From a virus: a stretch of 64,000 nucleotides of DNA. Made by a program: the position numbers and the translations under genes. Under the pieces are notes generated by a model. That model was not told the origin of the DNA, searched no databases, and was given only the letters and a program-made list of their open reading frames with translations. This document shows, piece after piece, positions 3,150-49,119 of this stretch (the stretch's first letter is position 1; every line of letters starts with the position of its first letter). The DNA lies in IMG/VR virus record IMGVR_UViG_3300049215_000529, positions 1 to 64,000 of that record; one strand, 5' to 3'.

Positions 3150-4031
3150 TTATTTGTTTTGCTCTCGAAGGTTTTCGTATCGATTGAGGAAATTAAGATA
3201 CAAATTATGTTTCCTTTGTAAATGGATAGTGGCATCTTTATAAAGCCAATCCAAAAAAATTTTGCATTGGTGATAGTTTTTAACTCTAATTTCGCACATA
3301 ATATCAATATCTTGTTTATGTGCTTTAACCAAATAGGATTTGAGCCCCAACTCTTCCTCAAAATAGTTTTTTAGAAAATCATTAACTTGACGGGTGCAAA
3401 TTAATCCTATATTAGGACTATCTCGATTGTTATTAGGTAGATAAATCCAACCATCTCCATCAATTAACCCTCGAATGAAGTGGCGATACATGGATTTGTC
3501 TAGCCATTCTGGGAAAACTATTTTGTACAACTTATTCTCAACAACGCCAAGTGTTGCGAGATGTTGGCTCATATGTTTGCTATAAAGGTTAAGCCACACA
3601 TAGTGGAATGTCTCGCCCTTATCATTCTTACGCACATTATACTTGAGTATCTCTTCACCATAGAAGATGTGCGACATTTTTTTCAGTATTTCTTCATCCC
3701 TCTTCGCTAAATGAATAGATATCCTATTGGTGCGAAATAAATTGTTACCATCCGCATAAATAAAACCTAGGATATACGCCTTCTCTTCAGTATCGATGAT
3801 ATCGAAGTAATGCTCGTTGAGATTGTATTTGCGAGTATAAGAAAATCCCCTCCTAGACTCAACGTGGTTATTCTTAAATAACCTGGTTAGTGCTTTACGG
3901 TGAATATCGAGTTGCTGTCCAATTTTTGTCATAGACACGCCTTCCTGATAGAGACGATTAATCTCGTCAATTTTGGCGTCAATGAGAACATTATTCTTGG
4001 TGTTTCGTTGTTTGATGGATGTTAGGCTCAT
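3150..4031 (-). CDS. LAGLIDADG homing endonuclease with N-terminal HTH
   Basis: Free-standing LAGLIDADG endonuclease with both motif copies, AYILGFIYADG and FIRGLIDGDGW, so it can act as a monomer. The N-terminus (EINRLYQEGVSMTKIGQQLD, then HRKALTRLF) is a helix-turn-helix of the resolvase type that probably helps DNA recognition. I start it at ATG 4031 (MSLTSIKQ); the longer reading from TTG 4073 has no better ribosome site. It lies between the capsid gene terminator and the RelA-like gene. The start codon is inside the loop of a 10-bp inverted repeat (4003-4012 / 4069-4078). Confidence 0.85.
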   Translation of the reverse strand: MSLTSIKQRNTKNNVLIDAKIDEINRLYQEGVSMTKIGQQLDIHRKALTRLFKNNHVESRRGFSYTRKYNLNEHYFDIIDTEEKAYILGFIYADGNNLFRTNRISIHLAKRDEEILKKMSHIFYGEEILKYNVRKNDKGETFHYVWLNLYSKHMSQHLATLGVVENKLYKIVFPEWLDKSMYRHFIRGLIDGDGWIYLPNNNRDSPNIGLICTRQVNDFLKNYFEEELGLKSYLVKAHKQDIDIMCEIRVKNYHQCKIFLDWLYKDATIHLQRKHNLYLNFLNRYENLREQNK

Positions 4032-4078
4032 AATTATAGTCCAGATTATGCATATACACCTGCTATATAACAACGAAA
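4003..4078 (-). repeat. 10-bp inverted repeat bracketing the LAGLIDADG start codon
   Basis: Perfect arms TTTCGTTGTT (4003-4012) and AACAACGAAA (4069-4078) enclose a 56-nt loop with the start codon of the LAGLIDADG gene at 4029-4031. The outer arm overlaps the capsid terminator stem. In RNA read through from the capsid unit this could fold over the initiation region; in transcripts started inside the loop it could not. Confidence 0.55.
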
Positions 4079-4102
4079 AAGCTACCTTTCGGTAGCTTTT
4101 TC
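4075..4102 (-). terminator. Rho-independent terminator after the capsid gene
   Basis: Perfect 12-bp stem GAAAAAGCTACC / GGTAGCTTTTTC with a 4-nt TTTC loop (plus strand), U-rich on its 3' side in either direction. It lies 44 nt beyond the capsid stop and before the LAGLIDADG gene, so it should end most capsid transcripts. A second small hairpin (AGTTAG / CTAACT, 4110-4127) stands between it and the stop codon. Confidence 0.85.
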
Positions 4103-4145
4103 AAATTTCAGTTAGTCATCGCTAACTAGTGAGGATCACTTAAGA

Positions 4146-5159
4146 TCATGCACCAATTACGACCGATTTTCTGCCCGCTGCACAACCACGAGGGTTCACA
4201 ATTGCTATACCAATTATTTCGCTTACTACCCAGCCCAACTTTAGTTGCTTTGGTTCGTCTGCTGGAAGAACTTCGATGTCCTGGCGGATTGGCATAACAC
4301 CAACGAACTCAGGATCTGCAGCACCATAGATGGTTCCAGGTGGAACGATCTTAGATACCATGATGTCAGTACCCCAGATGTGGGCGTAAAGACCAGTTTG
4401 TAGAACTTCACGCATGGTGACAGGATCGAAATCTCCGCCGCCTACGCCTTGTCCACCGCCTGAACCCCACTTAAGGATATCAGTGAACTCGTTGATGTTC
4501 ATGAAGTACTTGGTGGTTACCAAGTCCCAACGATCAATCTGTTGCTTGATTTCGACAAGATCTCTCTTTAGAAGACCTGCGTCTGCGATATCGGTTAGGA
4601 CGTTTTCGACAGAAGCTGCTGCATCAAGAGCTGCGAAGATGTTTGCATCTTCTTGAGCCATGATTTCTTGACGAGCCTTCTGAACGGAACGGTCGATAAC
4701 GTTGAATCTACGACGCTTGACTTCAGCGATACGGACGGTTGGGTTTGCGTAAATTTCGAATTCAGGAACGACTACACGGTCACCGAATACTCTGGATTCT
4801 GGACCAGCACCGTTGGAGGAGATGACAACTGCGGCAACATCGATATCTCTATCGTAAGTTGGCATAGCACCTTGTGGAAGAGGATCGACAACCAAGGCAC
4901 GACGTGCGATACCGTGGTAATCAAGGTTTCTACGGATTGGGTTTGCCATTGCCTGAGCAAGAGCAATCTTTCCGTCTTGGGTCATAATAGCGCGGGAGAT
5001 TAGCTCATCACGCTTTTCGTCGCTCAAGGATGGTTGACCAGCAAGACCCATGTTAGCTGGAGTGTTCTCTTCAAGAACTGCTGCGTACTTAACTAGAGTC
5101 TGTAGTGCATCCTTAAGGGATGAGGCATTCATTGCGCCTTGGTTGTTGAACATATTCAT
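4146..5159 (-). CDS. Probable major capsid protein
   Basis: 337-aa protein of the size and style of an HK97-fold capsid protein. It begins with a short helical N-arm (residues 10-40), then NPIRRNLDYHGIARR near 73-87 followed by a stretch rich in beta strands (VVVPEFEIYANPTVRI) typical of an E-loop/P-domain, a helical region with QKARQEIMAQEDANIFAAL near 160-178, and a compact C-terminal part ending VVIGA. Start at 5159 has AGGAGA 8 nt upstream. It is preceded by an unusually structured leader and followed by a strong terminator, as expected for a highly expressed gene. No cleavage site can be assigned. The alternative is another abundant shell protein; adjacency to a decoration-like gene supports capsid. 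Confidence 0.75.
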   Translation of the reverse strand: MNMFNNQGAMNASSLKDALQTLVKYAAVLEENTPANMGLAGQPSLSDEKRDELISRAIMTQDGKIALAQAMANPIRRNLDYHGIARRALVVDPLPQGAMPTYDRDIDVAAVVISSNGAGPESRVFGDRVVVPEFEIYANPTVRIAEVKRRRFNVIDRSVQKARQEIMAQEDANIFAALDAAASVENVLTDIADAGLLKRDLVEIKQQIDRWDLVTTKYFMNINEFTDILKWGSGGGQGVGGGDFDPVTMREVLQTGLYAHIWGTDIMVSKIVPPGTIYGAADPEFVGVMPIRQDIEVLPADEPKQLKLGWVVSEIIGIAIVNPRGCAAGRKSVVIGA

Positions 5160-5203
5160 AAACGTTCTCCTAATAGAATTATTTGCCAGTTTTACCAGCT
5201 GAA

Positions 5204-5280
5204 AGTTACTTACGTAAAAGGTGAGCGGTTCCTTTTAAGGGGATTCGAGACATCACGTCTCACCCAGCCACCCGGCTAGG
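5204..5280 (-). promoter_or_regulatory. Structured leader of the capsid gene
   Basis: The 140-nt gap upstream of the capsid gene contains several nested stems on the minus strand: AGCC-GGGT-GGCT, GAGAC-GTGAT-GTCTC, a CCTTAAAAGG palindrome, and an outer GGTGAG / CTCACC pair, followed by GTAAGTAACT (plus 5204-5213). The same decamer occurs in the leader of the next upstream gene (6050-6059). It may stabilise the mRNA, mark a processing site, or contain the late promoter; the sequence does not decide. Confidence 0.4.
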
Positions 5281-5299
5281 CTTAGTTTAATTCACTAGA

Positions 5300-6010
5300 T
5301 TATAGTGATGGAGGGCTGAACCAGAAGGTTGCGAATGCAAACTGACGAGGGCCAACTGAGCTAACGTTACCAGATGGGCTGTTTAGAGCTGCAACTAGTC
5401 TGTTAGGGGTGGTTACTAGAGAACCGTTGGACTCGAAGTCAACGAAACGTGCTACTGCTGGAGCGCCACCTACTGCTGCTGGAGAACCAACTGGGGTTAG
5501 AAGACCAGTAGAGGTGTAGGTTAGCTGAGTTCCAACGTCCAAAGTGGTGTTGGTTGGTTGCAAGCCGGTAGAAGTTGCGGTATCGCATGCATCAAGAGAT
5601 ACTGCGTACAAGCCTGGCTTGTCCCAGCAAGTTACCTTGCCAGAGCCGGTTGCGGTGTGAGGTCCTAGAAGAGCAGTGGAAGGAATGGAAGATGCTGGTC
5701 CGTATGAGGTTTGTCCAACAACACCACCTACGACAGAGCCGAATAGGGTTCCATATCCAGTGATACCTTCATCTGCAAGGAACAATGGGCGGGAAGTGCT
5801 CAAAAGGTTAGAGTGAGTTACTACTGGACGCTTTTGAACGCCTGATGGGTTAACATAACCGTCAAGAGAGTCAGCAGCTGACTTGTCACCTGGAACAGGG
5901 ACAGAAATCAAAGTAACGATTTCGCCACCCTTTAGGGTCAAGTAATCGCTATCATAACCATCAAATTGTCCAAGTGGTTGTGTACCTGGTTGTAGAAGTT
6001 TTAAAGACAT
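5300..6010 (-). CDS. Putative head decoration / capsid-associated protein
   Basis: 236-aa Gly/Ser/Thr/Val-rich, beta-type protein without signal peptide or catalytic motifs, coded immediately upstream of the capsid gene, where decoration and stabilisation proteins are common. The N-terminal 50 residues (LTLKGGEIVTLISVPV) look like a small beta barrel; the C-terminus ends FAFATFWFSPPSL. A region with GSGKVTCWDKPGLYAVS resembles GSGRMTVWF in the 232-aa protein at 13143-13832. Its leader holds a small hairpin (6033-6049) and the decamer shared with the capsid leader. Role inferred from context and composition only. Confidence 0.5.
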   Translation of the reverse strand: MSLKLLQPGTQPLGQFDGYDSDYLTLKGGEIVTLISVPVPGDKSAADSLDGYVNPSGVQKRPVVTHSNLLSTSRPLFLADEGITGYGTLFGSVVGGVVGQTSYGPASSIPSTALLGPHTATGSGKVTCWDKPGLYAVSLDACDTATSTGLQPTNTTLDVGTQLTYTSTGLLTPVGSPAAVGGAPAVARFVDFESNGSLVTTPNRLVAALNSPSGNVSSVGPRQFAFATFWFSPPSL

Positions 6011-6032
6011 TTTATTATCCTGTGAATCTTAA

Positions 6033-6049
6033 ATGCCGTTTAGCGGCAT
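6033..6049 (-). promoter_or_regulatory. Leader hairpin of the decoration-like gene
   Basis: ATGCCG / CGGCAT stem with a 5-nt loop in the 5' leader about 25 nt before the start codon. It is directly preceded on the minus strand by GTAAGTAACT, which is also in the capsid leader. It has no U-tract, so a terminator is unlikely; mRNA stabilisation or processing are possible. Confidence 0.35.
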
Positions 6050-6150
6050 AGTTACTTACACCTTAACTTACAAAATCTAGAGAACATATTTTCTTATTGA
6101 TAGAAAATTATGGTCTTATGAACAAAATACAAGCCTATGCCCATATTTGT

Positions 6151-7401
6151 TTATATTAGTCCGATTTCTCCTAGTTGTTTTTCTAGGTCTTCGGCTCCTT
6201 GATCAATCTGCTCTTTGGATGTAGGTGGTTTTCCAGTAGTTGAGGCTGTGCCGCCCTCTTCCTCTGAACCAAACATTTCCTGGCTCTTATAAGATGCCTC
6301 AGTAAGATCCTTGGTAAGAGAATCTTCATGTGATTTCGCCTCTTTGAGTGCTTTATTGATATTTTGCATATCACCCATAAAGGTCTTAAGGGCATGAGCA
6401 ACATCGTCAAAATCGTCTGCTACCAATCCCTTGCCACCATGAAGAAATGGATCGACAACCTTCATTGCCCAACCCTTTTCTACAATCTGTCTTTGCTTGT
6501 AGCTTGGGTTATCAAAATCTTGTTCAATCTTCTGGAAATATGGAAGAATTTTGTCGGTAGCGCTACGGAAAGATTTATATGCATTAACAATTGCGTTTGT
6601 TTCTGGCTTCTTGATAGCTTCTAGCAATTCACCAGCATCTTTTGGTTTTTCTAGCTGATCAATATATGGCTCAATTGACTTATACAAATTATAGTAACCG
6701 GCTAGTTTGTTCTTGAAATTTTGCATCTCTTGAATAAACTCTGGTCTATAATTGTAGCCCGCACCAACACTAGTCTGAATTGAATCGTTTGATTCAATCA
6801 AATCGTCAATTTCGGCAACTAATTTTTGATAGTCTTGCTCGAAACCATCACTAAAAAATGCCATATGATTCTTGAGATAAATTCCGCCAATAAGGGCGGC
6901 AGCTGCTGCAACACCAGCAATAACTAAAGGAGCAACAGCTGTCTTAGTAAGTGGCTGGCTAGCTTGTAGTAAGCACAAGTCAGCTAATGCCATTAACTTA
7001 TCTTGATTCTTGTTATCTAAATCGTTAGCGACTCTAACCAAAGACAGCACCAATTCCTGAGCGTATTTGCGCTGCGTAGATAAACCATCTGGAGTTTTCA
7101 TTACGATATGAATATTGATGTTCTGGCGCTCGTTTTCGTTCTCTACTAAACCATTAAGTTTGTCGTAGGAAGGTAAAATAACCACAGAGTTTGGATGAGC
7201 GTCTTCCATAATATTGTGCTCATATTCCATGTCTTTAGGAGTGTTTGGTTTTACGCCATACAGAGCTTCGATAGCAGAAATGTCTAATGAATCGGCTCGA
7301 TGAGTTTTCTCTAATTTCTTCTTAGAATCCTCAGAATCGTTCGAGATCATTCCCTTTTCTTGGGCTATTTTGACAAAACTGTCGAAGACGTCGCTTTTCA
7401 T
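6151..7401 (-). CDS. Hypothetical virion protein with one membrane segment
   Basis: A protein of about 416 residues, started here at ATG 7401 (MKSDVFDSF) because AAGG is 10 nt upstream; an in-frame ATG at 7410 is too close to it. Residues about 155-175 (AVAPLVIAGVAAAAALIGGI) form a single hydrophobic helix, flanked by helical regions; the C-terminal third is strongly helical and charged, ending in a Ser/Thr/Gly linker. The short N-terminal pattern (FDSFVKIAQEKGMI) resembles that of the 384-aa protein at 11041-12195. Together with the membrane-segment gene downstream it could be an internal or ejection protein. Function unknown. Confidence 0.65.
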   Translation of the reverse strand: MKSDVFDSFVKIAQEKGMISNDSEDSKKKLEKTHRADSLDISAIEALYGVKPNTPKDMEYEHNIMEDAHPNSVVILPSYDKLNGLVENENERQNINIHIVMKTPDGLSTQRKYAQELVLSLVRVANDLDNKNQDKLMALADLCLLQASQPLTKTAVAPLVIAGVAAAAALIGGIYLKNHMAFFSDGFEQDYQKLVAEIDDLIESNDSIQTSVGAGYNYRPEFIQEMQNFKNKLAGYYNLYKSIEPYIDQLEKPKDAGELLEAIKKPETNAIVNAYKSFRSATDKILPYFQKIEQDFDNPSYKQRQIVEKGWAMKVVDPFLHGGKGLVADDFDDVAHALKTFMGDMQNINKALKEAKSHEDSLTKDLTEASYKSQEMFGSEEEGGTASTTGKPPTSKEQIDQGAEDLEKQLGEIGLI

Positions 7402-7428
7402 ATTATTCATACCTTATAATGTATAGGT

Positions 7429-8541
7429 TTATGGAGCCTTTGCCGCCACATCATCGATAAAATGGTCTACTATTTTTTTCTTAGAAGTAAACATTCTAGG
7501 AATGAAAACTATAGGTCCACCAGCAGATGTATGGTTATACCAATCAATAGCATCCGTAATAGCTTGAAATCCTGCCGTACTTCTGATATTAGACTCTTGA
7601 CCATCTAATCCACCGTAAACTTCTTTTGCAAAGTTAACCAGCATATTCTCAACGCTTTCTTTATTATTTGGAATATTTTCTATCCAATTATTATCAGTAC
7701 CATTAAAATTCTCTTCATGATAAGATGGGTTGAGTGGGAACTTAGTTTGCTTGGCAGTTATGGTTGGTGCGGTTGTAGTTGGAGCAGAAGTTTGTGCAAC
7801 TGGTTTTCCTTTTTGCATAGTATTGTCTAATGCGTTTGGTCTGCCCAATAAATGATTAATCATGTCACCAGCTACCATGAACCCAGCAGATGCTAACAAT
7901 ACTTTGAAAATTAGCCCTAGAACTCTAGACAAAATACTGCTCGTCGCGCTCTTTTTAACTGAGTACCTGGAGAATATAGATCCCAGATTCATGCCTCGAC
8001 GTTGTTGACCACTTTTCAACAACTGATCGTACTCATTCAAAGCTAATTTTAAATGCTTCGCTTCTCTAATAAGAACATATGACTTTGATTCTAATTCCTT
8101 TTGAGCTTCGGCTGCCTCTTCCTCAGTAGCTGGCTTTGCATGTTCTTGTACCGAGCTGGAAACCATTTCATCTACTTGTGAAGAGGATAGTGGTTTCCCC
8201 AATCCGATAGCGCTCTTAACTTTTTCATAAATGGATTTTAAAATTCCGAAAACATCGATATGGAAAACGGCTGCTGCTAAGCTTAACAGCGCAGTAAACC
8301 ACCATGGCAACCCAATCATTCTAAGTGTTGTGAATATTAGACCAGGTGCCAATAGTTTTAACAAACTATTGGTCTTATCATTTGGATCGATTGAGTTATC
8401 AGCGTATTGCTTTACCTTACCAACAAGATCTGACATAACGCCGCCAGTTTGGGCACTTTTAGATAGACCATCACCATATGCTAGTGCCTCCACTATCATT
8501 ATGTCTACATACAAACTGATGCGGTCTTGTGCATGACTCAT
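7429..8541 (-). CDS. Hypothetical virion protein with hydrophobic segments
   Basis: 370 aa. Two hydrophobic clusters are visible: residues about 66-97 (LLAPGLIFTTLRMIGLPWW then FTALLSLAAAVF) and about 208-230 (VLGLIFKVLLASAGFMVAG), separated by a Glu/Ala-rich helical region (ATEEEAAEAQKELE). No signal peptide. The start at 8541 overlaps the preceding stop by 4 nt (ATGA), so it is coupled to the 497-aa gene. With the neighbouring gene it forms a pair of membrane-segment proteins in the head block, which fits ejected pore or inner-head proteins; this is inference only. Confidence 0.65.
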   Translation of the reverse strand: MSHAQDRISLYVDIMIVEALAYGDGLSKSAQTGGVMSDLVGKVKQYADNSIDPNDKTNSLLKLLAPGLIFTTLRMIGLPWWFTALLSLAAAVFHIDVFGILKSIYEKVKSAIGLGKPLSSSQVDEMVSSSVQEHAKPATEEEAAEAQKELESKSYVLIREAKHLKLALNEYDQLLKSGQQRRGMNLGSIFSRYSVKKSATSSILSRVLGLIFKVLLASAGFMVAGDMINHLLGRPNALDNTMQKGKPVAQTSAPTTTAPTITAKQTKFPLNPSYHEENFNGTDNNWIENIPNNKESVENMLVNFAKEVYGGLDGQESNIRSTAGFQAITDAIDWYNHTSAGGPIVFIPRMFTSKKKIVDHFIDDVAAKAP

Positions 8542-10031: not shown

Positions 10032-10039
10032 CGTATTCC

Positions 10040-11038: not shown

Positions 11039-11040
11039 AT

Positions 11041-12299: not shown

Positions 12300-13073
12300 T
12301 TACTCAGTTAGCGCATTCAATCGCCCATACCTCAACATACGCAAACCATGCTTGTTGCAATATCTGATGCCATCGATAATCTTATACTTTGCCTTACCAG
12401 ATACGTCGCAACCATCAACGGAGCACTTGCGAGAATAATCAATTCGTTTATCCCATGCTTCCTTGGCGCTTTCTGATTTCTTTTGTTTGGTATCTTCTGT
12501 GTCTTTGATGCCGATATGAGATTCGGACATTTTTTGTCTTAACTCTTCAGTATATTCGATAGGGTTCTCAAGACGTGCTTTACGATGCAATTCTTTTTCT
12601 TCTTCTGTTACGATGCGACCCTGGGCAGGATGACCCTTTTCAAAGATTTGTTGTTGAGTGGCTTCTGATTGTTTTTTACTAATTTCAGCCCTTTTCTCTA
12701 CAGAAAGTGAGGCGTGCCAATCTCGCATAGCTTTCAACCAGGCTTCCGATTTAGGTGCATTAAATCCTCCAAGAGCAACATTATAGCCCTTAGGAACTAA
12801 ACAATCATATTGAGAAACTAATACAGTTTCTGTATCATTAACATCTTCCCATGATGTACATGCTGCTATAATTTCAAAATCAAAAGTATCACTACCATAT
12901 TTTTTAATGGCACGCGAAATTACCATAGAAGGCTGATCTTGTGTAGCCATATATTTATGTCGATACCATCGTTTATCTGGCTCCACCGTTTGCCCGATAT
13001 AAATTTTTCCATTAATTTTATTAGTAATACGATAAAGATAGTGAATTGTAGTGTTTTGTTCGTTTGTCAGCAT
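12300..13073 (-). CDS. GIY-YIG homing endonuclease
   Basis: About 257 aa from ATG 13073 (MLTNEQN), preceded by GGAG. The N-terminal catalytic domain shows YLYRITNKINGKIYIGQT (GIY-YIG pair), the conserved R of DKRWYRH and the E of ETVLVSQYD. It is followed by NALGG-like GYNVALGGFNAP and a tail with repeated K/E/S segments (MSESHIGIKDTED, KKSESAKEAW) typical of DNA-binding minidomains in phage Seg-like enzymes; the end has a Cys/His pair (CSVDGCDVSG...CNKHG). It is inserted between two virion genes. The ribosome site and start lie in the loop of a 12-bp inverted repeat. Confidence 0.85.
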   Translation of the reverse strand: MLTNEQNTTIHYLYRITNKINGKIYIGQTVEPDKRWYRHKYMATQDQPSMVISRAIKKYGSDTFDFEIIAACTSWEDVNDTETVLVSQYDCLVPKGYNVALGGFNAPKSEAWLKAMRDWHASLSVEKRAEISKKQSEATQQQIFEKGHPAQGRIVTEEEKELHRKARLENPIEYTEELRQKMSESHIGIKDTEDTKQKKSESAKEAWDKRIDYSRKCSVDGCDVSGKAKYKIIDGIRYCNKHGLRMLRYGRLNALTE

Positions 13074-13094
13074 ACTTGACTCCAAAACACTACA
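13047..13094 (-). repeat. 12-bp inverted repeat enclosing the GIY-YIG ribosome site and start
   Basis: Perfect arms TGTAGTGTTTTG (13047-13058) and CAAAACACTACA (13083-13094) with a 24-nt loop. The loop holds the start codon (13071-13073), and the GGAG ribosome site (13080-13083) ends at the arm. A long transcript reading in from upstream would fold this stem around the initiation site. Confidence 0.7.
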
Positions 13095-13142
13095 TATCAG
13101 CTCGTTTCCTTTTGACCAACCAGAGCACTTCAATCATCGGGT

Positions 13143-26433: not shown

Positions 26434-28296
26434 TTAAAACTTACGAGGCATATACCCGCTAGCTACAAGTGGTTTTTTGATTTGTTGATAGTTTTGTTGC
26501 TGAAGAATTGGATTATTATTGCTAAATCCGTTTGTTATTAGGAATTTATAAGCAATGTATGCATTCAATAATGCCATAAAACCATCGTTTGGAGTACTTC
26601 CTTTAACATAATGAACACTTGGATCTCCGCCCCTTGAAATTGCTGGTTTAATCTCCATACTAGTACAATGCTCAATTAACCAAGCTACTTTTTCATAATC
26701 TCCAAATGGAAATCTAATCATTCCCTTTTTCATTTGTTCATATAATTCACCAATATAATAATCTCTTTCAAAAACTATTTCTTTTGGAAATGCCTCTTCA
26801 GTATACTTAACGTGACCATTAACTCTATTATGAGCGCGAGAAACTAGATAGCGGTCGCCATAGGTATTATGTAAAATTGCAGAAAAGTCATTAGAGTAAC
26901 CAATATCTCCTACTGCCAACTGAATGCTGTACTGCCTCATAATCTGATCGATGATTCCCTTTTTACTTTCCAAATCATTACGCCTAAACTTAGTTGCAAA
27001 CTCAATAGATAGTAGTCCAGGACCAGATACCTGCAAAACTACGGCAGTACTGTAAGATTGTCCTACAGCTTTAACTTTATCTGGATTAGCTAGTTGTTCC
27101 AAGTCGGAACGTGCGCCATAGTCTATTCCAACGACGATGATATTATCTTGAGACTTCTCAATGCGGGCGGAAAATTTTCTACCAACATCAGCACATTTAT
27201 CTCTAATTTCTTCTGGAGTAATAGGGCTAGAATCTCCCTGAAAGAACTCACCCAACACTTCGTTTTGAAATACGCGTTCAGTATTGATTGGATGAACGCC
27301 AGGCATTTCATTCAAGATATCTTCTTTACTGAACATAGGCATGTAAAGCTGGTTTATATGAAACCCAATCATTAAACAATCTTCATCGTCAGAATTCTTA
27401 AGAGCAACCCACTTACCGCGCTCGGCAGCTTCGCGCTTATCTTGTTCATGTCCACAGTGAGTGCATTTGACGACGAAGCCATGCAACCAAATTTTCTGCC
27501 AATCATCAGAGCCAGGAGTATAAAGTGGGAAATGCTCTTTACATTGCTCACAGCCTAAGTAATAATACTGTTGGGAAGATGTTTGCCACATCTTGTAGAA
27601 ATCGGAACCCTTACGACGTGGCGTTCCAAAATACACCTGCACACCCTTAGATGGCTTACCATACTTAGCAGTGGTAAGAACTTTGAGGGAGTTACCGATT
27701 GCCATTCCAGTAGTCTTCTGAACTTCGTCAAAGAAAATAACGTCAGCAGTACGACCCATGATGCGGTCGCCGTCAAGTCCAACCGATTCTACCCACAAAT
27801 GGTTGCCGCCAACAAATTGCTTGAAGTGCAAAGAGTCGCTAGTAGCCGTAGATTGATCTAGTAGAACCTGCATACAAGACTTGGCTTTACCAGTCTTCTT
27901 CTCTTGACCAACAGCAGGAACAGCAGTAACGATGATTTGATTAAGTTTAGTTTTAGAGTAAGCGGCAGCCAATTCTAATTGAGGAAAGGCATGGATAACT
28001 CTAATTGGAGGTTTCTCGCCAATACCAAAAATTCCTGAGCCCATGAAATACATTTCAAGGGCGCTTGCCATAGTAGTAGCTCCGACCTGACGACCTTTAA
28101 CCATGATAACTGGCTTGGCGTTAGGCTCTAAAGCTTTAATTCCAATGTAACGATAAATGTCGGCAAAAGGTCGATAGCCATTGCCCTCTAATCTAAATGG
28201 TTTACCATCTAATGTTAAATTGAGCTGGCAAAATGTTACTGGGTCAAGACTGAGAAGTTGTTTCTTAAGTTTTTCAAAAAGCTCTTTATCGTCCAT
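26434..28296 (-). CDS. terL: Terminase large subunit
   Basis: 620 aa. ATPase domain: KGRQVGATT (Walker A, residues 67-75) and DVIFFDEVQ (Walker B with catalytic Glu) near 185-195, then the YFGTPRRKG coupling motif. A zinc-ribbon-like insertion (CEQCKEHFP...CTHCGHEQ) recalls lambda GpA-type enzymes. The nuclease domain begins with VVGIDYGARSD (first Asp of the RNase H-like site), followed by VGDIGYSNDF. It packages DNA into the prohead through the portal encoded next. The start codon is in one arm of a 15-bp palindrome shared with the divergent HNH gene, and no ribosome site is visible. Confidence 0.9.
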   Translation of the reverse strand: MDDKELFEKLKKQLLSLDPVTFCQLNLTLDGKPFRLEGNGYRPFADIYRYIGIKALEPNAKPVIMVKGRQVGATTMASALEMYFMGSGIFGIGEKPPIRVIHAFPQLELAAAYSKTKLNQIIVTAVPAVGQEKKTGKAKSCMQVLLDQSTATSDSLHFKQFVGGNHLWVESVGLDGDRIMGRTADVIFFDEVQKTTGMAIGNSLKVLTTAKYGKPSKGVQVYFGTPRRKGSDFYKMWQTSSQQYYYLGCEQCKEHFPLYTPGSDDWQKIWLHGFVVKCTHCGHEQDKREAAERGKWVALKNSDDEDCLMIGFHINQLYMPMFSKEDILNEMPGVHPINTERVFQNEVLGEFFQGDSSPITPEEIRDKCADVGRKFSARIEKSQDNIIVVGIDYGARSDLEQLANPDKVKAVGQSYSTAVVLQVSGPGLLSIEFATKFRRNDLESKKGIIDQIMRQYSIQLAVGDIGYSNDFSAILHNTYGDRYLVSRAHNRVNGHVKYTEEAFPKEIVFERDYYIGELYEQMKKGMIRFPFGDYEKVAWLIEHCTSMEIKPAISRGGDPSVHYVKGSTPNDGFMALLNAYIAYKFLITNGFSNNNPILQQQNYQQIKKPLVASGYMPRKF

Positions 28297-28324
28297 GGCA
28301 ATATTTCAGAATATTGCCATGGAC
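28291..28324. repeat. 15-bp palindrome containing both start codons of terL and the HNH gene
   Basis: Arms GTCCATGGCAATATT (28291-28305) and AATATTGCCATGGAC (28310-28324) with a TCAG loop, perfect over 15 bp. The terL start (28294-28296, minus) lies in the left arm and the HNH start (28319-28321, plus) in the right arm; both proteins begin with Met-Asp. In either mRNA the start would be in a hairpin. Confidence 0.85.
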
Positions 28325-28852
28325 AAGAAAAAACGTGGACCTTACACCTATGAAGGAAAAGACTGTATACATTGTCTTAGACCTTTAACAAAAGATAACA
28401 CCAGACCAAGTGATATACAACAGGCTAATTATTTATGTATTAGCTGCACTAAAGCTAAAGGTAAACGCAGATATTTTGAAAGAAAAGAGTTAATTAGAGA
28501 GCAGCAAAGAGAATACGATCTTGAAAATAAAAGAAAGGTCATAGAAGCTTATGGTAGCATGTGCACTTGTTGTGGCGAAACTATTTTAGAATTTTTAACA
28601 ATTGATCACACTCATAATGATGGGGCGGAAGATAGAAAAAAGAATGGAAAGAAAACGGGCGGCAAACTTTATCGTTGGCTAATTCAAAATAATTTTCCTA
28701 AAGATAAATACCAATTGCTTTGTTTTAATTGCAATTGTGCAAAAGGTTTCTTTGGATATTGTCCACATAAGAAGCCAGAAGTTATTATTAGAGTAACTAG
28801 GAAGAAGATTAATCCTTCACTGGGGTCAGAGCGTGAAACGCATCAGTATTAG
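28319..28852 (+). CDS. HNH homing endonuclease (plus strand)
   Basis: About 177 aa from ATG 28319 (MDKKKRGPY); an upstream in-frame ATG at 28295 (MAIFQNIA) is in the other arm of the palindrome. A Cys pair (CIHC...CISC) precedes the HNH core: CTCCGETILEFLTIDHTHND with the catalytic His, then KLYRWLIQNNFPKDKYQLLC and FNCNCAKG, ending CPHKK. Cys-rich HNH enzymes of this kind are common mobile genes in phages. It is inserted antisense between terL and its upstream neighbour, and its 3' end overlaps the end of that gene by 44 nt. Confidence 0.85.
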   Translation: MDKKKRGPYTYEGKDCIHCLRPLTKDNTRPSDIQQANYLCISCTKAKGKRRYFERKELIREQQREYDLENKRKVIEAYGSMCTCCGETILEFLTIDHTHNDGAEDRKKNGKKTGGKLYRWLIQNNFPKDKYQLLCFNCNCAKGFFGYCPHKKPEVIIRVTRKKINPSLGSERETHQY

Positions 28853-29462
28853 ATGGGTCAATCTCTGTATCAGATCCAGTATCACGAGAGCCTAAGTTAC
28901 TGTAGCTTTCATAACTTGCTGGGTTGTTCTTCTTAGCCTCTAAATTCATCTTACTAACCAATCTAATTAAATTATCGTCGTCCCAATCCTTGGCATCAGA
29001 GACGTCAGATTTGTGAATGGATCTGATTTTCTCAATGATTGCTGGAACTGGTAAATTGCCCTTGCTGTCTCTAATATAGTTCTCTAAAGTTTTGTGAATC
29101 TGTGGCATCTTCTTGAGAACGATTGGAATCATGTCAACTTTCTTTTCCATAGCATCATTTTGATCCGATGCTACTTTAGTTTTGACAGATACATTCTCAT
29201 CAGCAGATTGCTTGATTTTGTCTAGATAAGCAGACAATCCACTTCTTTCCTTCATATCTTCTACTGCTGCCTCTACAGAAGGATACTTTGATTTTCCATT
29301 CATGATGGAATTAATTTGATCAAACAAAGAGTTCTCAATAGTGCGAGGTTGTACAGCACCCTTCTCCAACTTTCTTTGAAATTGGCGAAGCCAGTGATCC
29401 TCATCAATGCTGGAATCAGCCTCTCTCGAAACTACTGGTTGGTGTCTGGTATACTTGGACAT
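28809..29462 (-). CDS. Hypothetical virion-block protein (about 217 aa)
   Basis: Started at ATG 29462 (MSKYTRHQ), which overlaps the upstream stop and has GAGAAGAAA before it. Helical and charged, with residues VEAAVEDMKERSGLSAYLDK forming a short recognisable pattern also typical of small phage modules, a central NYIRDSKGNLPVPAIIEKI and an acidic/polar C-terminus. Immediately upstream of terL before the HNH insertion, where a small terminase subunit is often encoded, but no DNA-binding HTH is evident. Function open. Confidence 0.6.
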   Translation of the reverse strand: MSKYTRHQPVVSREADSSIDEDHWLRQFQRKLEKGAVQPRTIENSLFDQINSIMNGKSKYPSVEAAVEDMKERSGLSAYLDKIKQSADENVSVKTKVASDQNDAMEKKVDMIPIVLKKMPQIHKTLENYIRDSKGNLPVPAIIEKIRSIHKSDVSDAKDWDDDNLIRLVSKMNLEAKKNNPASYESYSNLGSRDTGSDTEIDPSNTDAFHALTPVKD

Positions 29463-42792: not shown

Positions 42793-42875
42793 GTTGATCT
42801 CCTAATGTTTTTCTTCTTTTTGTACGAAATGTACTTTTTCTTGTTAACGAATCGACTGTTTTTTATCTTAGCACA

Positions 42876-43190
42876 TTAGCGTGCGAATCTAACGAAACGA
42901 GTGCGAGTATGATCAGATGTACGACCGAATCTTACGCCAATACCTCTGTTGCGAAGTCTGTTGACCACGCTATTAATTACCACTCTGAGAGCGCCGGGAG
43001 AACCTGGTAGAAGAGTTCGCTGTCTCTTGCTCAAAACTCTGTTGAGAGCAGTTGTCAACTCAGTCATCGTTCCAGTCCAAGTGCTAACATTGTGTCTTTC
43101 CATTATTGAAGAAATACCGCGACAAACAATGTCATTAACGCTGTTTGTTACAGAACTTCTACGTCCATTTGTCTTACTTATAGATGCCAT
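42876..43190 (-). CDS. Arg-rich winged-helix-like DNA-binding protein (104 aa)
   Basis: 104 aa with about 17 arginines. TWTGTMTELTTALNRVL, then LPGSPGALRVVINSVVNRLR and RGIGVRFGRTSDHTRTRFVR resemble the winged-helix region at the C-terminus of phage and plasmid primase-helicases, here as a stand-alone gene. It probably binds DNA. It is placed between SSB and the uvsX operon, so a replication or recombination role is likely. Ribosome site is weak. Confidence 0.55.
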   Translation of the reverse strand: MASISKTNGRRSSVTNSVNDIVCRGISSIMERHNVSTWTGTMTELTTALNRVLSKRQRTLLPGSPGALRVVINSVVNRLRNRGIGVRFGRTSDHTRTRFVRFAR

Positions 43191-43198
43191 TTACTTAC

Positions 43199-43546
43199 TC
43201 ACTTTCCTACCAAGGTAGATGGTTTGTTTGCATTAAAAACTAAGCTTCTAATGCTGAAAACTTTTTGTGCCGGGAACATCATATCCAGCAATTCTTCTTT
43301 TGGAGTGCTAGACAAAATTTCAATGAAGGAACCCGCAATTTCATCTTCTGATAAATCGGAATAAGTACCCTTAACTAAAACAAACCCGTTTTGCATATCT
43401 GGTTTGTCTATAGTAATGAAGCGCCTGTGCTTAGTACCTTTTCCGGAGCTAGAGTCCTCTAATGTCACCAAATAGGAGGGTTTCCTAGAAATGGTGCCCA
43501 TGTTAGGGGCTGACGTTACGCTAATTGCAAAATCTTTTTCAGCCAT
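43199..43546 (-). CDS. Hypothetical protein downstream of uvsX (115 aa)
   Basis: 115-aa mixed protein, AAAGG before ATG 43546, overlapping the uvsX stop by one nt. It contains KHRRFITIDKPDMQNGFVLV and a C-terminus with MMFPAQKVFSIRSLVF. Probably a small recombination or replication accessory by location; family unknown. Confidence 0.6.
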   Translation of the reverse strand: MAEKDFAISVTSAPNMGTISRKPSYLVTLEDSSSGKGTKHRRFITIDKPDMQNGFVLVKGTYSDLSEDEIAGSFIEILSSTPKEELLDMMFPAQKVFSIRSLVFNANKPSTLVGK

Positions 43547-44745
43547 TACTTACTGCCTTTCTTACTCTTCTTCTTTTCAGAATCATCATCCGAGACTGAA
43601 ACCGTTTTACCGGACAATTGGGCTTCAAAAGCAGCTCTTTTATCAGCTTGCTCTTTCCTCTTTTGTTCCATTTTGGTCTCACGAGCCTCATTGACTTTTA
43701 GCAGCAACTCAGATGCTAAAGCCGCATCATCTCTGATAGCTTCACAGAACTTAGGAAATCCAACCCATTTACGGTCACCGTACTCGTGGGAAACAGTAGT
43801 TGGTTTAGTTACCACATTGTAATCCAACGCGAGCTGCGCGATTTCTTCGTGTCTGTCTATAACACCGATTCCGAAGTTTACTTTGAATTCGCATTTTCTT
43901 GGCCAAGGTCCAAACTTTGATTTTTCAATCGTAGCTCTAAGTGGGTGTCCAACCTTATTTTCCTTCTCGTCAAGAATCATAGCATCCTTGCGTTGAACGG
44001 CTTCAAAATAAACGTTAGCGCTAAGCGTGTGCGCATAAGTATTTCCACCGGAATAAGTATGGTCGGCACCATATGGATCCATATTATCTTTCTTATGGTT
44101 GATAATAATGAACGGAATATTTGCCTTGCTAACTTCTAGAGTAAGCTTTTTGAAGGTAGTAGTTAAGAATCTTGCTAATAGAGCCATGTTCATCTTACCA
44201 ACTACTGAAGTATCTTCTCCAGGTGGCACAATAGATCCCAATGAATCTAGTACAATCATATTGATATTGAATTCGCCATTTGCAATCTTATCAAGCAATC
44301 CTTCTTTGGACTTGCCTTTAAGCACGTGAGTCTTTGCGTCTTCCTTTGGAACTCCAAGCAACATTTCAAAGCACTTGCGTCCATTAGCTGCTGCATCGCC
44401 GAAAACGTGAATGACACGGGAAGTATCTACTCCCAAAACTTCTGCCCAGTTGGGATCGAAAGTTTGCTCTGCATCGATAAACATCTGTTGTGCAGTAGGA
44501 TCTTGACGTTGGGCTTCTAGCATGGCTATCATAGCCATGAGAGTCTTGCCGCTTCCGGTAGGACCATAATACTGCATCAATCTTCCCTTAGGAAGACCGC
44601 CCGAAGAGAGTGCATCATCTAATGCCACTGAACCAGTGGAAATACAAGGAACCTTTTCGCCCACGGTTTCATGAGCCATTTTGAAATCTAATTGCTCTTC
44701 CGAGTCTGCATAACTTTTAAAAAACGCTTCAAATTTATTCGACAT
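43546..44745 (-). CDS. uvsX: RecA/UvsX-type recombinase
   Basis: 399 aa with GGGAGA before ATG 44745. RecA fold: TGSVALDDALSSGGLPKGRL near residues 37-56, Walker A GPTGSGKT at 61-68, the AEQTFDPNWAEVLGVD region with the catalytic Glu, Walker B MIVLDSLGSI, and a GKMNMALLARFLTT loop; C-terminus Lys/Ser-rich. It catalyses strand exchange on ssDNA coated by SSB, driving recombination-dependent replication and repair. Followed by an unknown gene and preceded by a UvsY-like gene, forming a T4-type recombination operon. Confidence 0.9.
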   Translation of the reverse strand: MSNKFEAFFKSYADSEEQLDFKMAHETVGEKVPCISTGSVALDDALSSGGLPKGRLMQYYGPTGSGKTLMAMIAMLEAQRQDPTAQQMFIDAEQTFDPNWAEVLGVDTSRVIHVFGDAAANGRKCFEMLLGVPKEDAKTHVLKGKSKEGLLDKIANGEFNINMIVLDSLGSIVPPGEDTSVVGKMNMALLARFLTTTFKKLTLEVSKANIPFIIINHKKDNMDPYGADHTYSGGNTYAHTLSANVYFEAVQRKDAMILDEKENKVGHPLRATIEKSKFGPWPRKCEFKVNFGIGVIDRHEEIAQLALDYNVVTKPTTVSHEYGDRKWVGFPKFCEAIRDDAALASELLLKVNEARETKMEQKRKEQADKRAAFEAQLSGKTVSVSDDDSEKKKSKKGSK

Positions 44746-44757
44746 TTTATCTCCCTA

Positions 44758-45270
44758 TCATTCATAGCCTTCGGGGACAGGTTCACTTGGAGTGACAGGA
44801 CTATATCCGAGGATTGTCCTGCGTAACCCTTGTGCAATATCTTTGAAATGATGGTGAGCCTTCACTAAAATTTCATATTTGCGATCAAGGAGAAGTTTGC
44901 TGCCTTTGGCTGCTGCTAATTTTATTTGTGCTTTTTCGACTTCGGGCGATTGTTCTGATGCCCATTTTTTCATATCGGTGGTGGTACGAGCGCCATCAGG
45001 TGCTTGATACTCCAACGCTACTTTATTCTTTATACTATTTACTTTAGCTTCTAGATATCCTATTGTCTTTACCATTTTACCTAGATAGATAGACATAACG
45101 TCCGCGCCTCGTAATGCCTGCTGTTGCAGAAGCTCTACGTGAGCTAAGTCAATTGCGTCTACATCTCTAAGATGCTCTAATACCTTTTCGATTTCAGTTA
45201 GGTCAAAATCAGAGAAATTTTCCTCTAAATCAGTGCCTAAAAGATCACCCAGTCTTACTTGTTGGGTCAT
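44758..45270 (-). CDS. Putative UvsY-like recombination mediator
   Basis: About 170 aa from ATG 45270 (MTQQVRLGD), AAGGA 9 nt upstream. Helical throughout; the middle (YLGKMVKTIGYLEAKVNSIK, then VALEYQ) and the following LAAAKGSKLLLDRKYEILVK resemble the general build of T4 UvsY (a short helical protein that loads UvsX on SSB-coated ssDNA). It directly precedes uvsX with a 12-nt gap. Sequence identity to T4 UvsY is not obvious, so the call rests on layout and operon position. Confidence 0.5.
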   Translation of the reverse strand: MTQQVRLGDLLGTDLEENFSDFDLTEIEKVLEHLRDVDAIDLAHVELLQQQALRGADVMSIYLGKMVKTIGYLEAKVNSIKNKVALEYQAPDGARTTTDMKKWASEQSPEVEKAQIKLAAAKGSKLLLDRKYEILVKAHHHFKDIAQGLRRTILGYSPVTPSEPVPEGYE

Positions 45271-45319
45271 GTTGTCTTCCTTCTGTAATATATAATGTAA
45301 TGAACTATTTCTCGACAAA

Positions 45320-45565
45320 TTAATATTTGTCTGACCTTTTATGATCGAAAAATAAGTTATAATTTTTACCGTCATTCATTTCGTTAGCTGGAGTGAAATG
45401 TAGCTCAAAAGTGCCGTGAAAGTTATCTATCCAAACTTTCCCACGGAATGGGTCATAATCATAAGCTTTTTCCAAATTGACCATGGCATCATCTAAAGTT
45501 TTAGACACTTTATCGATAATGAACCTTTTTATGCTTTGCTTTTCAGCTTCGCTATAATGGCTCAT
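45320..45565 (-). CDS. Hypothetical protein (81 aa)
   Basis: 81 aa, start overlaps the upstream stop by 4 nt. A helical N-terminal half (RFIIDKVSKTLDDAMVNLEK) and a beta C-terminal half (GKVWIDNFHGTFELHFTP) ending in charged residues. Small accessory gene of the uvsX operon; not recognised. Confidence 0.55.
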   Translation of the reverse strand: MSHYSEAEKQSIKRFIIDKVSKTLDDAMVNLEKAYDYDPFRGKVWIDNFHGTFELHFTPANEMNDGKNYNLFFDHKRSDKY

Positions 45566-45858
45566 TTGTCCTTTAATTTTTCTTTAACTTCGGCTGCTAG
45601 CTCATCTAACTGTTTATGCATTAAACGAAGGTGTTGGTGCTGCATTAGACTCATCAAGAATAAGAATACTTCAAAGCTCGTTCGGAATTTTGATGGTGGT
45701 TTCAAGAAAATGATTATACCATTATTATCCGTTTCAAATAAATCTCTAAATAGATCTTCACCCTTATTGGTGGCAGTAGTATAAGACTTGACGATTTTCT
45801 GGTACAAAGACCACTCATCTTCAGTCATATCCACTTTTTTATTATCAACTACTTTCAT
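45562..45858 (-). CDS. Hypothetical protein (98 aa), conserved phage type
   Basis: 98 aa with AAAGGT before ATG 45858. MTEDEWSLYQKIVKSYT, then GEDLFRDLFETDNNGIIIFL and FEVFLFLMSLMQHQHLRLMH form a compact helix-strand-helix protein with a basic/acidic tail. Hydrophobic but without a clear membrane segment. By location it belongs to the replication/recombination unit. Function unknown. Confidence 0.6.
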   Translation of the reverse strand: MKVVDNKKVDMTEDEWSLYQKIVKSYTTATNKGEDLFRDLFETDNNGIIIFLKPPSKFRTSFEVFLFLMSLMQHQHLRLMHKQLDELAAEVKEKLKDK

Positions 45859-45876
45859 AACTTACCTTTGTTGATA

Positions 45877-46707
45877 TCAACCACTTCTGGAGAAGCCGCC
45901 TTTACCACGATTTACGCCTGATTCAAAATTCTCTTTGGAGCTTCTAACTCTTTCTTGCATTTGCTGTAACTTGAGCAAATCGGCGGCGCTGCTAGCACTA
46001 TTGCCTTTGCCCTTGTTAGCCATAGCTAGAACTACAGATGGAATCTCATCGTCATCTGTAGTCGGAAGCGAGGAGGCAATCTCGTTGCCAGAAAGCAAAG
46101 ATTCAAATTCGGCTACTGCCTCTGGATCTGCGTTCTCCATCATCTCTGGTGAAATCATGTCGGCTGCGCCATCTTGATTTATAGCAGTGGTTCCTGCTTT
46201 CTTGATTTGTTGAACAACTTTCTTAAAATGCTGAGTCTTTTCCGCTGGGGATTGAAAGCTGGCATTTGCAACTGGGGCGCCTTGGGCGGGAGCTGGGCTT
46301 TTGATAACTTCGGCTCTTTTAAAGAACTCGTTAGTTTTTTCCTCAGATTGAATCTTTTCAACTAAGACATCCTCTTCGCCAGTTTCGGTCTTAACCTTTA
46401 CAATAGATTGCTTGCGAGCCAAGAAATCTTGCTCATCTTGAGCCTTTTTCAATTCCTTAACCAAATCTTTTGGCATGTACATGCCGATATTTGGCGAATC
46501 AGTTTTGATGTAATTATGATTAGATAGCATCCAATCATTTAATTGATCTTGATATGATGCCAAGGAATCCATGGTCTCACGTAAAGAAACAAATAGATTC
46601 TTTAAATGCTCTTCCATAATGTGTTTGCCACAGAATGGACAAACGTTAATTTCAACGGCATGTTTCCATTGTGGATTTATTTCTATTTCACAAGATGTAC
46701 ACTTCAT
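45877..46707 (-). CDS. Zinc-ribbon protein with helical extension (276 aa)
   Basis: 276 aa with AAGGG before ATG 46707. The N-terminal 30 residues form a C-x-x-C...C-x-x-C ribbon (KCTSCEIEI...NVCPFCGKHI). Then helices (HLKNLFVSLRETMDSL, DLVKELKKAQDEQDF), an Ala/Pro linker and Ser/Gly-rich C-terminal with SRSG. The ribbon-plus-linker build suggests an adaptor. Adjacent to the 136-aa gene with no gap. Unknown function. Confidence 0.6.
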   Translation of the reverse strand: MKCTSCEIEINPQWKHAVEINVCPFCGKHIMEEHLKNLFVSLRETMDSLASYQDQLNDWMLSNHNYIKTDSPNIGMYMPKDLVKELKKAQDEQDFLARKQSIVKVKTETGEEDVLVEKIQSEEKTNEFFKRAEVIKSPAPAQGAPVANASFQSPAEKTQHFKKVVQQIKKAGTTAINQDGAADMISPEMMENADPEAVAEFESLLSGNEIASSLPTTDDDEIPSVVLAMANKGKGNSASSAADLLKLQQMQERVRSSKENFESGVNRGKGGFSRSG

Positions 46708-47118
46708 TTACTTAACCCTTCTAAAAACTGGAGGTTTGCGAACACTCGCACTTTTAACCATTTTTCTATTGTTCCAGTAGGCATCAGAATCAGCAGTATG
46801 TTCAATTCCAAATATTTTGGATAGCTCTTGCCCAAACTGATCGATTGGTTCCGATGACTTAGATTTTATATCATCAACTATTTTTCTCAAACGGTATACA
46901 CTCAAGGGGAGCGCATTTTTATCAGCAATGTAATCGATCGTAATAATACCCAGCGCTGATTGCATTTTTTTATCCTGCTGAGCATATTCTAACAATTTTT
47001 TCATTCTTAGTTCGGACGCTTTTGGCGCCTCTTCTGGAACATATGGATCCTTAGCATTGGCAGCCAAATCCTTAATGGAACCTCTATCAGAATATTGTTT
47101 GACCGCTCTAATTGACAT
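46708..47118 (-). CDS. Hypothetical basic protein (136 aa)
   Basis: 136 aa with TGAGG before ATG 47118. Helical and Lys/Arg-rich with a C-terminal tail MVKSASVRKPPVFRRVK. The tail resembles the basic FKKVVFRRVDGK tail of its upstream neighbour: both end with a V-F-R-R-V motif, hinting at a shared docking signal. Unknown function. Confidence 0.55.
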   Translation of the reverse strand: MSIRAVKQYSDRGSIKDLAANAKDPYVPEEAPKASELRMKKLLEYAQQDKKMQSALGIITIDYIADKNALPLSVYRLRKIVDDIKSKSSEPIDQFGQELSKIFGIEHTADSDAYWNNRKMVKSASVRKPPVFRRVK

Positions 47119-47141
47119 GAGACCTCATAGTATATGCAAAA

Positions 47142-47765
47142 TTATTTGCCGTCTACTCTCCTAAAAACAACCTTCTTAAAAGTCTTGACAGTCTTAGGCT
47201 TGCCTTTGATTGCTTTGTTGCCACCAGCGACTGCTGTTGGTTGGCGGCTACGAGTAACTTGTATTGGAGAGGCGGTTATATCTTCAGCATATTCTTTAAT
47301 TTTTAGAACCGCATCTTCAAAACCCTTGACATTGTATCTGTCTGCAAAATCTGCCAACTCTTGAAGTGGATCTGGATCTTCCCTCTTAGATGGGGCAACG
47401 GCTGCTTGTATAGCAGGTTTATCTGACAAATTGGTTAAATCAGTCAAATCGCGAAACTTGTCCATGGTCAGATTGAGATCCTTCAACTCGGCATTAACTT
47501 TTTTAAGTTTCCCAGCGCGAAAACGAGAAAGATCAAAATCAGTATCGAAATCGTGCGGATCAGGAATTCTATCCATAGCATCAATTAAAGCTTTTCTTTC
47601 ACGATCACCTGGTTTAGTAGACGGGTCAATTCCTTGAACTTCCAGCAAGCGCGACATTAACCTGTTCAAAGGACTTACTGCTTTGTCAACCAATGCAACT
47701 CCCAAACCCACATAACGGGTCAAAAGGACAGGATTCTTTTTGATAAATGTGACGAATGAATTCAT
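47142..47765 (-). CDS. Hypothetical protein with V-F-R-R-V tail (207 aa)
   Basis: 207 aa with AGGAACACA before ATG 47765. A helical protein with repeated L-x-x-L stretches (LKDLNLTMDKFRDLTDLTNL) and basic C-terminus KTFKKVVFRRVDGK, similar in its last residues to the following 136-aa protein. Start overlaps the HTH gene stop by 4 nt. Not recognised. Confidence 0.55.
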   Translation of the reverse strand: MNSFVTFIKKNPVLLTRYVGLGVALVDKAVSPLNRLMSRLLEVQGIDPSTKPGDRERKALIDAMDRIPDPHDFDTDFDLSRFRAGKLKKVNAELKDLNLTMDKFRDLTDLTNLSDKPAIQAAVAPSKREDPDPLQELADFADRYNVKGFEDAVLKIKEYAEDITASPIQVTRSRQPTAVAGGNKAIKGKPKTVKTFKKVVFRRVDGK

Positions 47766-48658
47766 TGTGTTCCTAATTTTTTATGAGACTTTCTGCCTCT
47801 TCTTGGCTTTTCAAAAGTTTTAACAGCTTCCAATTCTTTTTGCGTAGGCTTAAAGGCACCAGTAGCAACAGGTACGGAAGAGTTAAACATGACAGAAGAA
47901 TTAAACATAACAGATTGAGGTTGTACATACAAACTTGGATCTGCTGAGTTTATAGATAAGTTGTTGCCGAGGGCGGCGTTAGTAGAGCCGGTATAGTTGA
48001 GTTGTGGAGTTAAGTCAACACTTCTTGTAACGACGCCATCGGCAACTTGGTCATAAAGTCTTACATGGCTCTCTAGACCAGATTGAAACACTGTATTTGT
48101 CTGTGGTTGCAATGCAACTGACAGGTCTTTCATTAAATCTTGTACTTCGGGAACTTCACCAATTTCAATTGACTCTGCTCCAATCTTTTGTATTTCTTCC
48201 ACTAGTTCTTTTTGGGTAAGATCGTCTGCCTTAGCTACTAGAGCATCTATTGCTTCTTCTGGAGCAACAAACATATTTGGCTTTGGCTTTTCACCATTTG
48301 GCTTTATGAATTGCTTGAAGTGGTTTTGAACATCTTCAGTTTTTGGTTTATTTCTAGAGTAAATTGGCTCTTCTGAAACGCTGTTAAGTTTAAGGGAAAA
48401 ATTTGATAAAATCCAAGAAGCAAAATCTTCAATAGAAGCATCAGTTCCACTCAATTCAACAGTTTTTTTGACAACAAGAGAAATTGCACTATTATTCATC
48501 ATTTGTTTTTCCTCGCGCTCCGCTTCGCGCTCACCTTCAACAATGATGGTACCAGACTCAGTTTGGTAAGCTTTGACTGGTAAAGTGCCAGCCTTAAACC
48601 ATCGATAGGCGGTTAAGTATTTAACACCAGTTTTTTCAGCCCATTCTTTCAATTTCAT
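47762..48658 (-). CDS. HTH (MerR/IS607-resolvase type) protein (298 aa)
   Basis: 298 aa. The first 50 residues, MKLKEWAEKTGVKYLTAYRW then FKAGTLPVKAYQTESGTIIV, form the winged HTH of MerR proteins and of IS607-type serine recombinases, but no recombinase catalytic domain follows. Instead the rest is helical, acidic and low in complexity, with two M-F-N-S-S-V copies near residues 248-261. Probably a DNA-binding regulator or architectural protein. Its ATG lies within the ATGA overlap with the HNH gene just upstream. Confidence 0.6.
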   Translation of the reverse strand: MKLKEWAEKTGVKYLTAYRWFKAGTLPVKAYQTESGTIIVEGEREAEREEKQMMNNSAISLVVKKTVELSGTDASIEDFASWILSNFSLKLNSVSEEPIYSRNKPKTEDVQNHFKQFIKPNGEKPKPNMFVAPEEAIDALVAKADDLTQKELVEEIQKIGAESIEIGEVPEVQDLMKDLSVALQPQTNTVFQSGLESHVRLYDQVADGVVTRSVDLTPQLNYTGSTNAALGNNLSINSADPSLYVQPQSVMFNSSVMFNSSVPVATGAFKPTQKELEAVKTFEKPRRGRKSHKKLGTQ

Positions 48659-49104
48659 AGTACTAACTTTCTATTTTTAAGGGCATTGGCTTTTGCAGAA
48701 ATTGGTCTCAAATTATCTAATGACCAACAAAGACGAAAAGCCTCATCTTCAACAGAAGTAAATAAAAAAGCCCCTTGCGGAATTATATGATCTATTTGCC
48801 AAAACCAAGTAGAAGCATCATTGTCATTCCAATCACTTATTTTATACTTTCCTTGATTTTTCCAATGCATCCAAAATTCAAATTGACTTTCCAAATGATT
48901 TTTTAATGTTCGAGCATCAAAAGGCAAATACTTCCAAATATATGATATTGTATCATATTTAACAGAAAAACGAATTAAATTATGAATTTTACTTTTAAAT
49001 CGTCTTATTTCCCTTGTACACTCCCTACATATATCGCTGTCACCACGAAAAGCGCTGGGGACATTTAGAAAGCCGCAAGTTATGCATCGTTTTGTTTCTT
49101 TCAT
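48655..49104 (-). CDS. HNH endonuclease upstream of the HTH gene (149 aa)
   Basis: 149 aa, TGA stop overlapping the next start (ATGA). N-terminal Cys pairs (CITCGF...CREC), then the HNH core WFWQIDHIIPQGAF with the catalytic His and CWSLDNLRPISAKANALKNR as the N-H half. Typical mobile HNH gene. It is inserted between the polymerase gene and the HTH gene. The start codon lies in the 3' arm of a 9-bp inverted repeat (49098-49119), and no ribosome site is visible. Confidence 0.8.
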   Translation of the reverse strand: MKETKRCITCGFLNVPSAFRGDSDICRECTREIRRFKSKIHNLIRFSVKYDTISYIWKYLPFDARTLKNHLESQFEFWMHWKNQGKYKISDWNDNDASTWFWQIDHIIPQGAFLFTSVEDEAFRLCWSLDNLRPISAKANALKNRKLVL

Positions 49105-49119
49105 ATCAAAATATGAAAG
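49098..49119 (-). repeat. 9-bp inverted repeat containing the HNH start codon
   Basis: Arms CTTTCATAT (49098-49106) and ATATGAAAG (49111-49119) with a 4-nt loop, perfect. The start codon (49102-49104, minus) is inside the left arm. Same arrangement, with a 4-nt loop, as the terL/HNH palindrome at 28291-28324. Confidence 0.7.

Follow-up and report, generated by a model that had tools for sequence, protein, structure and literature searches.

Several homing endonucleases of the T-even phages (I-TevI, I-TevII, I-TevIII and segB), together with mobE of Aeh1, are sequestered by hairpins (PMC2988022). The same design thus occurs at unrelated mobile nucleases, which belong either to the GIY-YIG family (I-TevI, I-TevII, segB) or to the HNH family (I-TevIII, mobE) (PMC2988022). 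Among the late genes of T4, gene e, soc and others likewise have stems that sequester the ribosome-binding site (RBS) (PMC3014915, PMC2988022). T4 carries in addition segD, a free-standing nuclease gene lying antisense in the capsid gene region, for which no promoter was found (PMC2988022).

Here we analyse a window of 64 kb, which is the first part of a phage record of 204,190 bp (G000 denotes the whole 204-kb record), so that window coordinates are also record positions. No relatives at the DNA level were found in the annotated phage collection. A previous sequence-only reading had described four free-standing endonuclease genes of three families in this window, each with a perfect inverted repeat at its start codon, and had proposed a general form of the I-TevI switch. 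The families are confirmed as LAGLIDADG (LAG1), GIY-YIG (GIY1) and two HNH genes resembling endonuclease VII (HNH1 and HNH2), and the four repeats are present where they had been placed, bracketing or including the ATG in each case (Table 1). The four are, however, not one phenomenon. We consider it somewhat probable that the repeats at GIY1 and at HNH1/terminase are maintained start-codon switches, and we assign no function to those at LAG1 and HNH2.

Table 1. Genes, repeats and signals at the four endonuclease starts of the window
Feature	Position	Strand	Remarks
LAG1 gene (LAGLIDADG)	3150..4031	-	3' of major capsid gene; ATG 4031
LAG1 repeat, 10 bp	4003-4012/4069-4078	-	56-nt loop; at LAGLIDADG start
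Terminator-like hairpin	4074..4103	-	after major capsid gene
GIY1 gene (GIY-YIG)	12300..13073	-	ATG 13073
GIY1 stem, 12 bp	13047-13058/13083-13094	-	Shine-Dalgarno (GGAG) and ATG inside; inner 4-bp stem
Promoter-like box GATATGTA	13091..13098	-	overlaps GIY1 5' arm; relatives have GATATATA
Large terminase gene	26434..28296	-	divergent from HNH1; without Shine-Dalgarno
HNH1/terminase palindrome, 15 bp, perfect	28291-28305/28310-28324	.	loop 4; both ATGs inside (terminase 28296, -; HNH1 28319, +)
HNH1 gene (endonuclease-VII-like)	28319..28852	+	ATG 28319; second in-frame ATG at 28295
Upstream neighbour of terminase	28809..29462	-	3' end overlaps HNH1 3' end
HNH2 gene (endonuclease-VII-like)	48655..49104	-	downstream of DNA polymerase III alpha; ATG 49104
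HNH2 hairpin, 9 bp	49098-49106/49111-49119	-	loop 4; ATG in 3' arm

The resemblance to the I-TevI/mobE group lies in a stem that would cover the RBS or start on read-through RNA, in a GIY-YIG and an HNH gene alike, and in a promoter (putative here) sited so that locally begun RNA would lack the 5' arm. Unlike that group, the box is similar to GATATATA and not to TATAAATA, the GIY1 5' arm lies between the box and the Shine-Dalgarno (SD), and the HNH1 stem stands between two divergent genes and covers the start of an essential neighbour. As in T4 gene e and soc, a non-mobile late gene would be silent on long RNA, as we propose for the terminase, but the T4 genes have neither the inserted antisense nuclease nor the shared dyad that are both found at HNH1/terminase. 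Like segD, HNH1 runs opposite to the essential late genes among which it is inserted, whereas, unlike at segD, a promoter-like core may here serve both genes. HNH1 and HNH2 match the endonuclease VII-like HNH families phrog_2633 and phrog_1035; in contrast to these phage families, several divergent relatives have no domain that retains the catalytic Asp-His.

A start-codon stem in the GIY-YIG gene

Our scans recovered more than 30 relatives of GIY1, whose start regions have a common architecture: TGATATATA, the 5' arm, GGAGGT, the ATG, and the 3' arm inside the coding region. A two-part fold, in which an outer stem encloses the SD and the ATG and an inner stem lies over both, is predicted in 20 of 21 relatives. 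The arms themselves differ and still match: the pair TGTAGTGTTTTG/CAAAACACTACA of the window is replaced in relatives by GTATTTTG/CAAAATAC, TGTTTC/GAAACA, CTGTAT/ATACAG or CTTGTAT/GTACAAG, the last with one G-U. Even the place of the 3' arm changes: in one class it lies some 15 nt past the gene start, in another in conserved Leu-Tyr-Arg/Lys codons.

Arms pair better with their own partner than with swapped ones, both in the outer (p=5e-5) and in the inner stem (p=1e-4), values that relatedness inflates somewhat. Within classes the preference holds for the outer stem in class 1 (p=4.5e-4) and class 2 (p=0.013), and for the inner stem in class 1 (p=0.012) but not in class 2 (p=0.54). No such preference is seen among 78 control genes (p=1.0). 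As judged from this covariation, the GIY1 stem is maintained and would sequester the RBS and start codon on read-through RNA.

An enriched box similar to GATATATA abuts the GIY1 5' arm. The genome contains 18 copies of GATATATA, 13 of which touch intergenic DNA (7% of the genome) and 12 of which lie at most 80 nt 5' of a start on the same strand. Because it is enriched just 5' of starts genome-wide, we read GATATATA as a putative promoter element; the GIY1 box of the window, GATATGTA, is one base off, which counts against that reading. When motifs were profiled ahead of every gene start, no one peak stood out strongly. Some copies (e.g., at G000 63158, 64234 and 56169, minus strand) stand as close as 7-10 nt to an ATG, a spacing that suggests leaderless transcripts or very short leaders. 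A phage-encoded multisubunit RNA polymerase was also considered as the reader of the box and rejected, as a PF00562 search gave no match.

We therefore propose the following working scheme for GIY1, whose promoter is putative. RNA read through from the upstream gene would fold the SD and ATG into the stem, while RNA from the gene's own promoter at the 5' arm, starting near the end of that arm by analogy with a -10 box, would lack the arm and be translated. In silico, trimming the 5' arm takes the fold from -20.9 to -3.0 kcal/mol. From the covarying arms, and by analogy with the T-even genes, we take GIY1 to be a read-through switch of the I-TevI/segB/mobE design. On the evidence of covariation, the T4 switch would in this way extend to uncultured phages whose promoter motif differs.

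The dyad between HNH1 and the large terminase

HNH1 is inserted antisense between the terminase and its upstream neighbour, and the palindrome lies between the two divergent starts. The stem reported over the HNH1 start is thus real, but it covers the terminase ATG just as much, which the sequence-only reading had missed. Where the terminase site is empty, the upstream gene has the orientation of the terminase and stops a short distance ahead of it, whereas at occupied sites an HNH gene is antisense to the terminase. Occupied sites comprise a group A of 7 loci and a looser group B of 18 more (25 together). From one start codon to the other, both codons included, group A loci span 28 nt and most group B loci 32-33 nt.

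Group A keeps the pattern CATGGnnATAT..ATATnnCCATG. Its arm pairs are standard in 92.9% of cases, all five varying pairs change two-sidedly in at least one locus, and the covariation is matched by none of 500 shuffles. By these compensatory changes, the group A stem over the start is kept. Support is weaker in group B, with arms of 3-9 bp, 79.2% of positions paired and a covariation equalled by 26 of 500 shuffles, although own arms still pair better than swapped ones (p=0.001). Relative to the terminase ATG, 24 of the 25 loci have an ATAT at -18 (+/-1), and each of the seven group A loci has one at -18 from either of its two ATGs; the palindrome of the window has ATAT at -18 and -8 from each ATG.

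Here the mobile antisense module would have exchanged the terminase leader for a dyad that contains the ATGs of the two genes together with an AT-rich promoter core common to them. A terminator was looked for between the upstream neighbour (28809-29462) and the terminase and not found, so that RNA running antisense through HNH1 would carry a locked terminase start. RNA begun inside the dyad would have a short unstructured leader, and the terminase RNA folds at -1.8 kcal/mol when trimmed versus -33.1 kcal/mol. HNH1/terminase most likely works in the same way as the GIY1 switch. A mobile nuclease would then have become the source of the start signals for an essential packaging gene, and a phage that lost the module could lose the start of its terminase with it. 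In L016, at about 1638-1665, a terminase start without HNH insert has an 11-bp repeat over its ATG, perhaps the relic of a lost module.

On the terminase tree, six rows of group A fall on as many different branches and require six changes, with empty sites scattered among them; for the 19 rows of group B, 12 changes are required. These scattered branches imply that the module is gained and lost at a single site, and its distribution across loci, patchy and always at the same position, is that of a mobile endonuclease module inserted where the terminase starts. In ten of the HNH proteins (L006, L017, L018, L025, L031, L034, L043, L057, L195 and L203) the catalytic Asp-His is absent from all HNH domains, but the zinc-binding cysteines remain. 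Six of the ten share the same deletion, and pairs among these six are under purifying selection (dN/dS about 0.08-0.22 where computable, with dS near saturation). Their sequences make it possible that they are domesticated regulators, and nuclease-dead descendants are candidates for that role.

Endonuclease starts and other starts of the genome

The arms at the four endonuclease starts of the window (15, 12, 10 and 9 bp) are each within the top 2% of 264 other starts, five of which also have arms of at least 9 bp; one of these five is the terminase start, with the same palindrome as HNH1. Outside the window, the genome carries at least 12 further endonuclease genes. Arms at 12 such starts measure 8, 7, 5, 0, 6, 6, 6, 7, 6, 7, 5 and 6 bp, which is background, and none reaches 9 bp. 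Nor does the fold energy of these 12 differ significantly from that of ordinary starts (p=0.059 for the best of five measures). These genes rule out a general rule for all endonucleases. The proposed general switch fits GIY1 well and is possible for HNH1/terminase, and fails for LAG1 and the 12 endonucleases outside the window.

A comparison of stem energies had been suggested together with that proposal, and the fold-energy z-scores single out HNH1/terminase (-6.2 to -6.5) as extreme, but not GIY1 (-2.8), HNH2 (-2.05) or LAG1 (-0.14, no more structure than in shuffles). The upstream arm of LAG1 runs without a break into the U tail of the terminator of the capsid gene. Among six relatives, including a near-identical phage, the own arms of LAG1 pair no better than swapped ones (p=0.65). 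With arms not kept in relatives and structure at shuffle level, we reject a functional LAG1 stem. A search for the repeats in relatives thus found them kept and covarying at GIY1 and HNH1/terminase, and lost at LAG1. The HNH2 hairpin is modest, and the sole relative found is identical.

It had also been stated that no such repeats were seen at the ordinary starts checked, and that equally strong stems at other genes would refute the switch. Genome-wide, the absence at ordinary starts does not hold: the 15-bp repeat is also that of the terminase, an 11-bp one occurs at the gene at 53452-53733, and a hydroxylase-like gene has about 12 pairs; ordinary genes with stems of equal strength thus count partly against the proposal. 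The 11-bp repeat (window 53725-53758) lies over the start of a 93-aa gene with no function assigned. The other gene, fatty-acid-hydroxylase-like and not endonuclease-related (G000:195633-196136, minus strand, the same as L115:11633-12136), has a strong start-codon hairpin, whose pairs, one of them G-U, were read by eye from the start.

Alternative readings of the repeats

That the four form a set by chance, a striking subset picked from a 64-kb window with no common rule, is a reading to which we give even weight. The background arms at all 12 outside endonucleases, the unconserved LAG1 repeat and the comparable stems at non-endonuclease genes agree with it. It is opposed by the conservation with covariation at GIY1 and HNH1/terminase, and by the excess of such arms at endonuclease starts (4 of 16 versus 4 of 263 others; Fisher p=4e-4, for a set picked post hoc). 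Copying of one arm onto the other by template switching during replication could also make arms alike without selection for function, and perfect palindromes of 15-17 bp occur in three loci, in two of which the second codons of both genes match (GAC/GAC, TCA/TCA). We find this improbable, given the spacing and ATAT boxes fixed across scattered lineages and a GIY1 stem left unexplained, with its 3' arm at different codon positions in two classes.

At HNH1/terminase itself, the palindrome might instead act as DNA, as a bidirectional promoter and/or as an operator of dyad symmetry through which the HNH protein, or some other dimer, regulates both genes. I-TevI represses its own expression from an operator that overlies its promoter (PMC2988022), and the layout here resembles that of a divergent regulator and its target, with fixed spacing, symmetrical and invariant CATGG and ATAT blocks, and the ATAT at the same distance from both ATGs throughout group A. 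The dyad folds on both strands, and counts of wobble (G-U) pairs favour neither RNA strand. Loci with dead nucleases have no nuclease activity to silence, which counts against a read-through switch at this site, and because of them, and of the purifying selection on several such proteins, the operator reading is strengthened. The sequence of an operator recognized by a single protein should nevertheless be conserved, but three inner pairs of the arms change two-sidedly, and the looser group B is poorly symmetrical. We therefore place the read-through switch first at HNH1/terminase, with the DNA operator as a serious rival that we judge plausible though less probable. A combined history, in which the terminase start of large phages is colonized by a spreading mobile module that resembles endonuclease VII, its symmetrical cassette of promoter and start codon for both genes replacing the leader, and some nuclease-dead copies persist as divergent DNA-binding terminase regulators at the dyad, seems to us unlikely.

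Two further nuclease sequences of the phage lie outside the window. A second GIY-YIG gene (GIY2, G000:114842, plus strand) has an 8-bp repeat with the ATG within its 3' arm, and at G000:196763-197347 (minus strand) an endonuclease-VII-like frame with three stop codons is a decaying nuclease gene.
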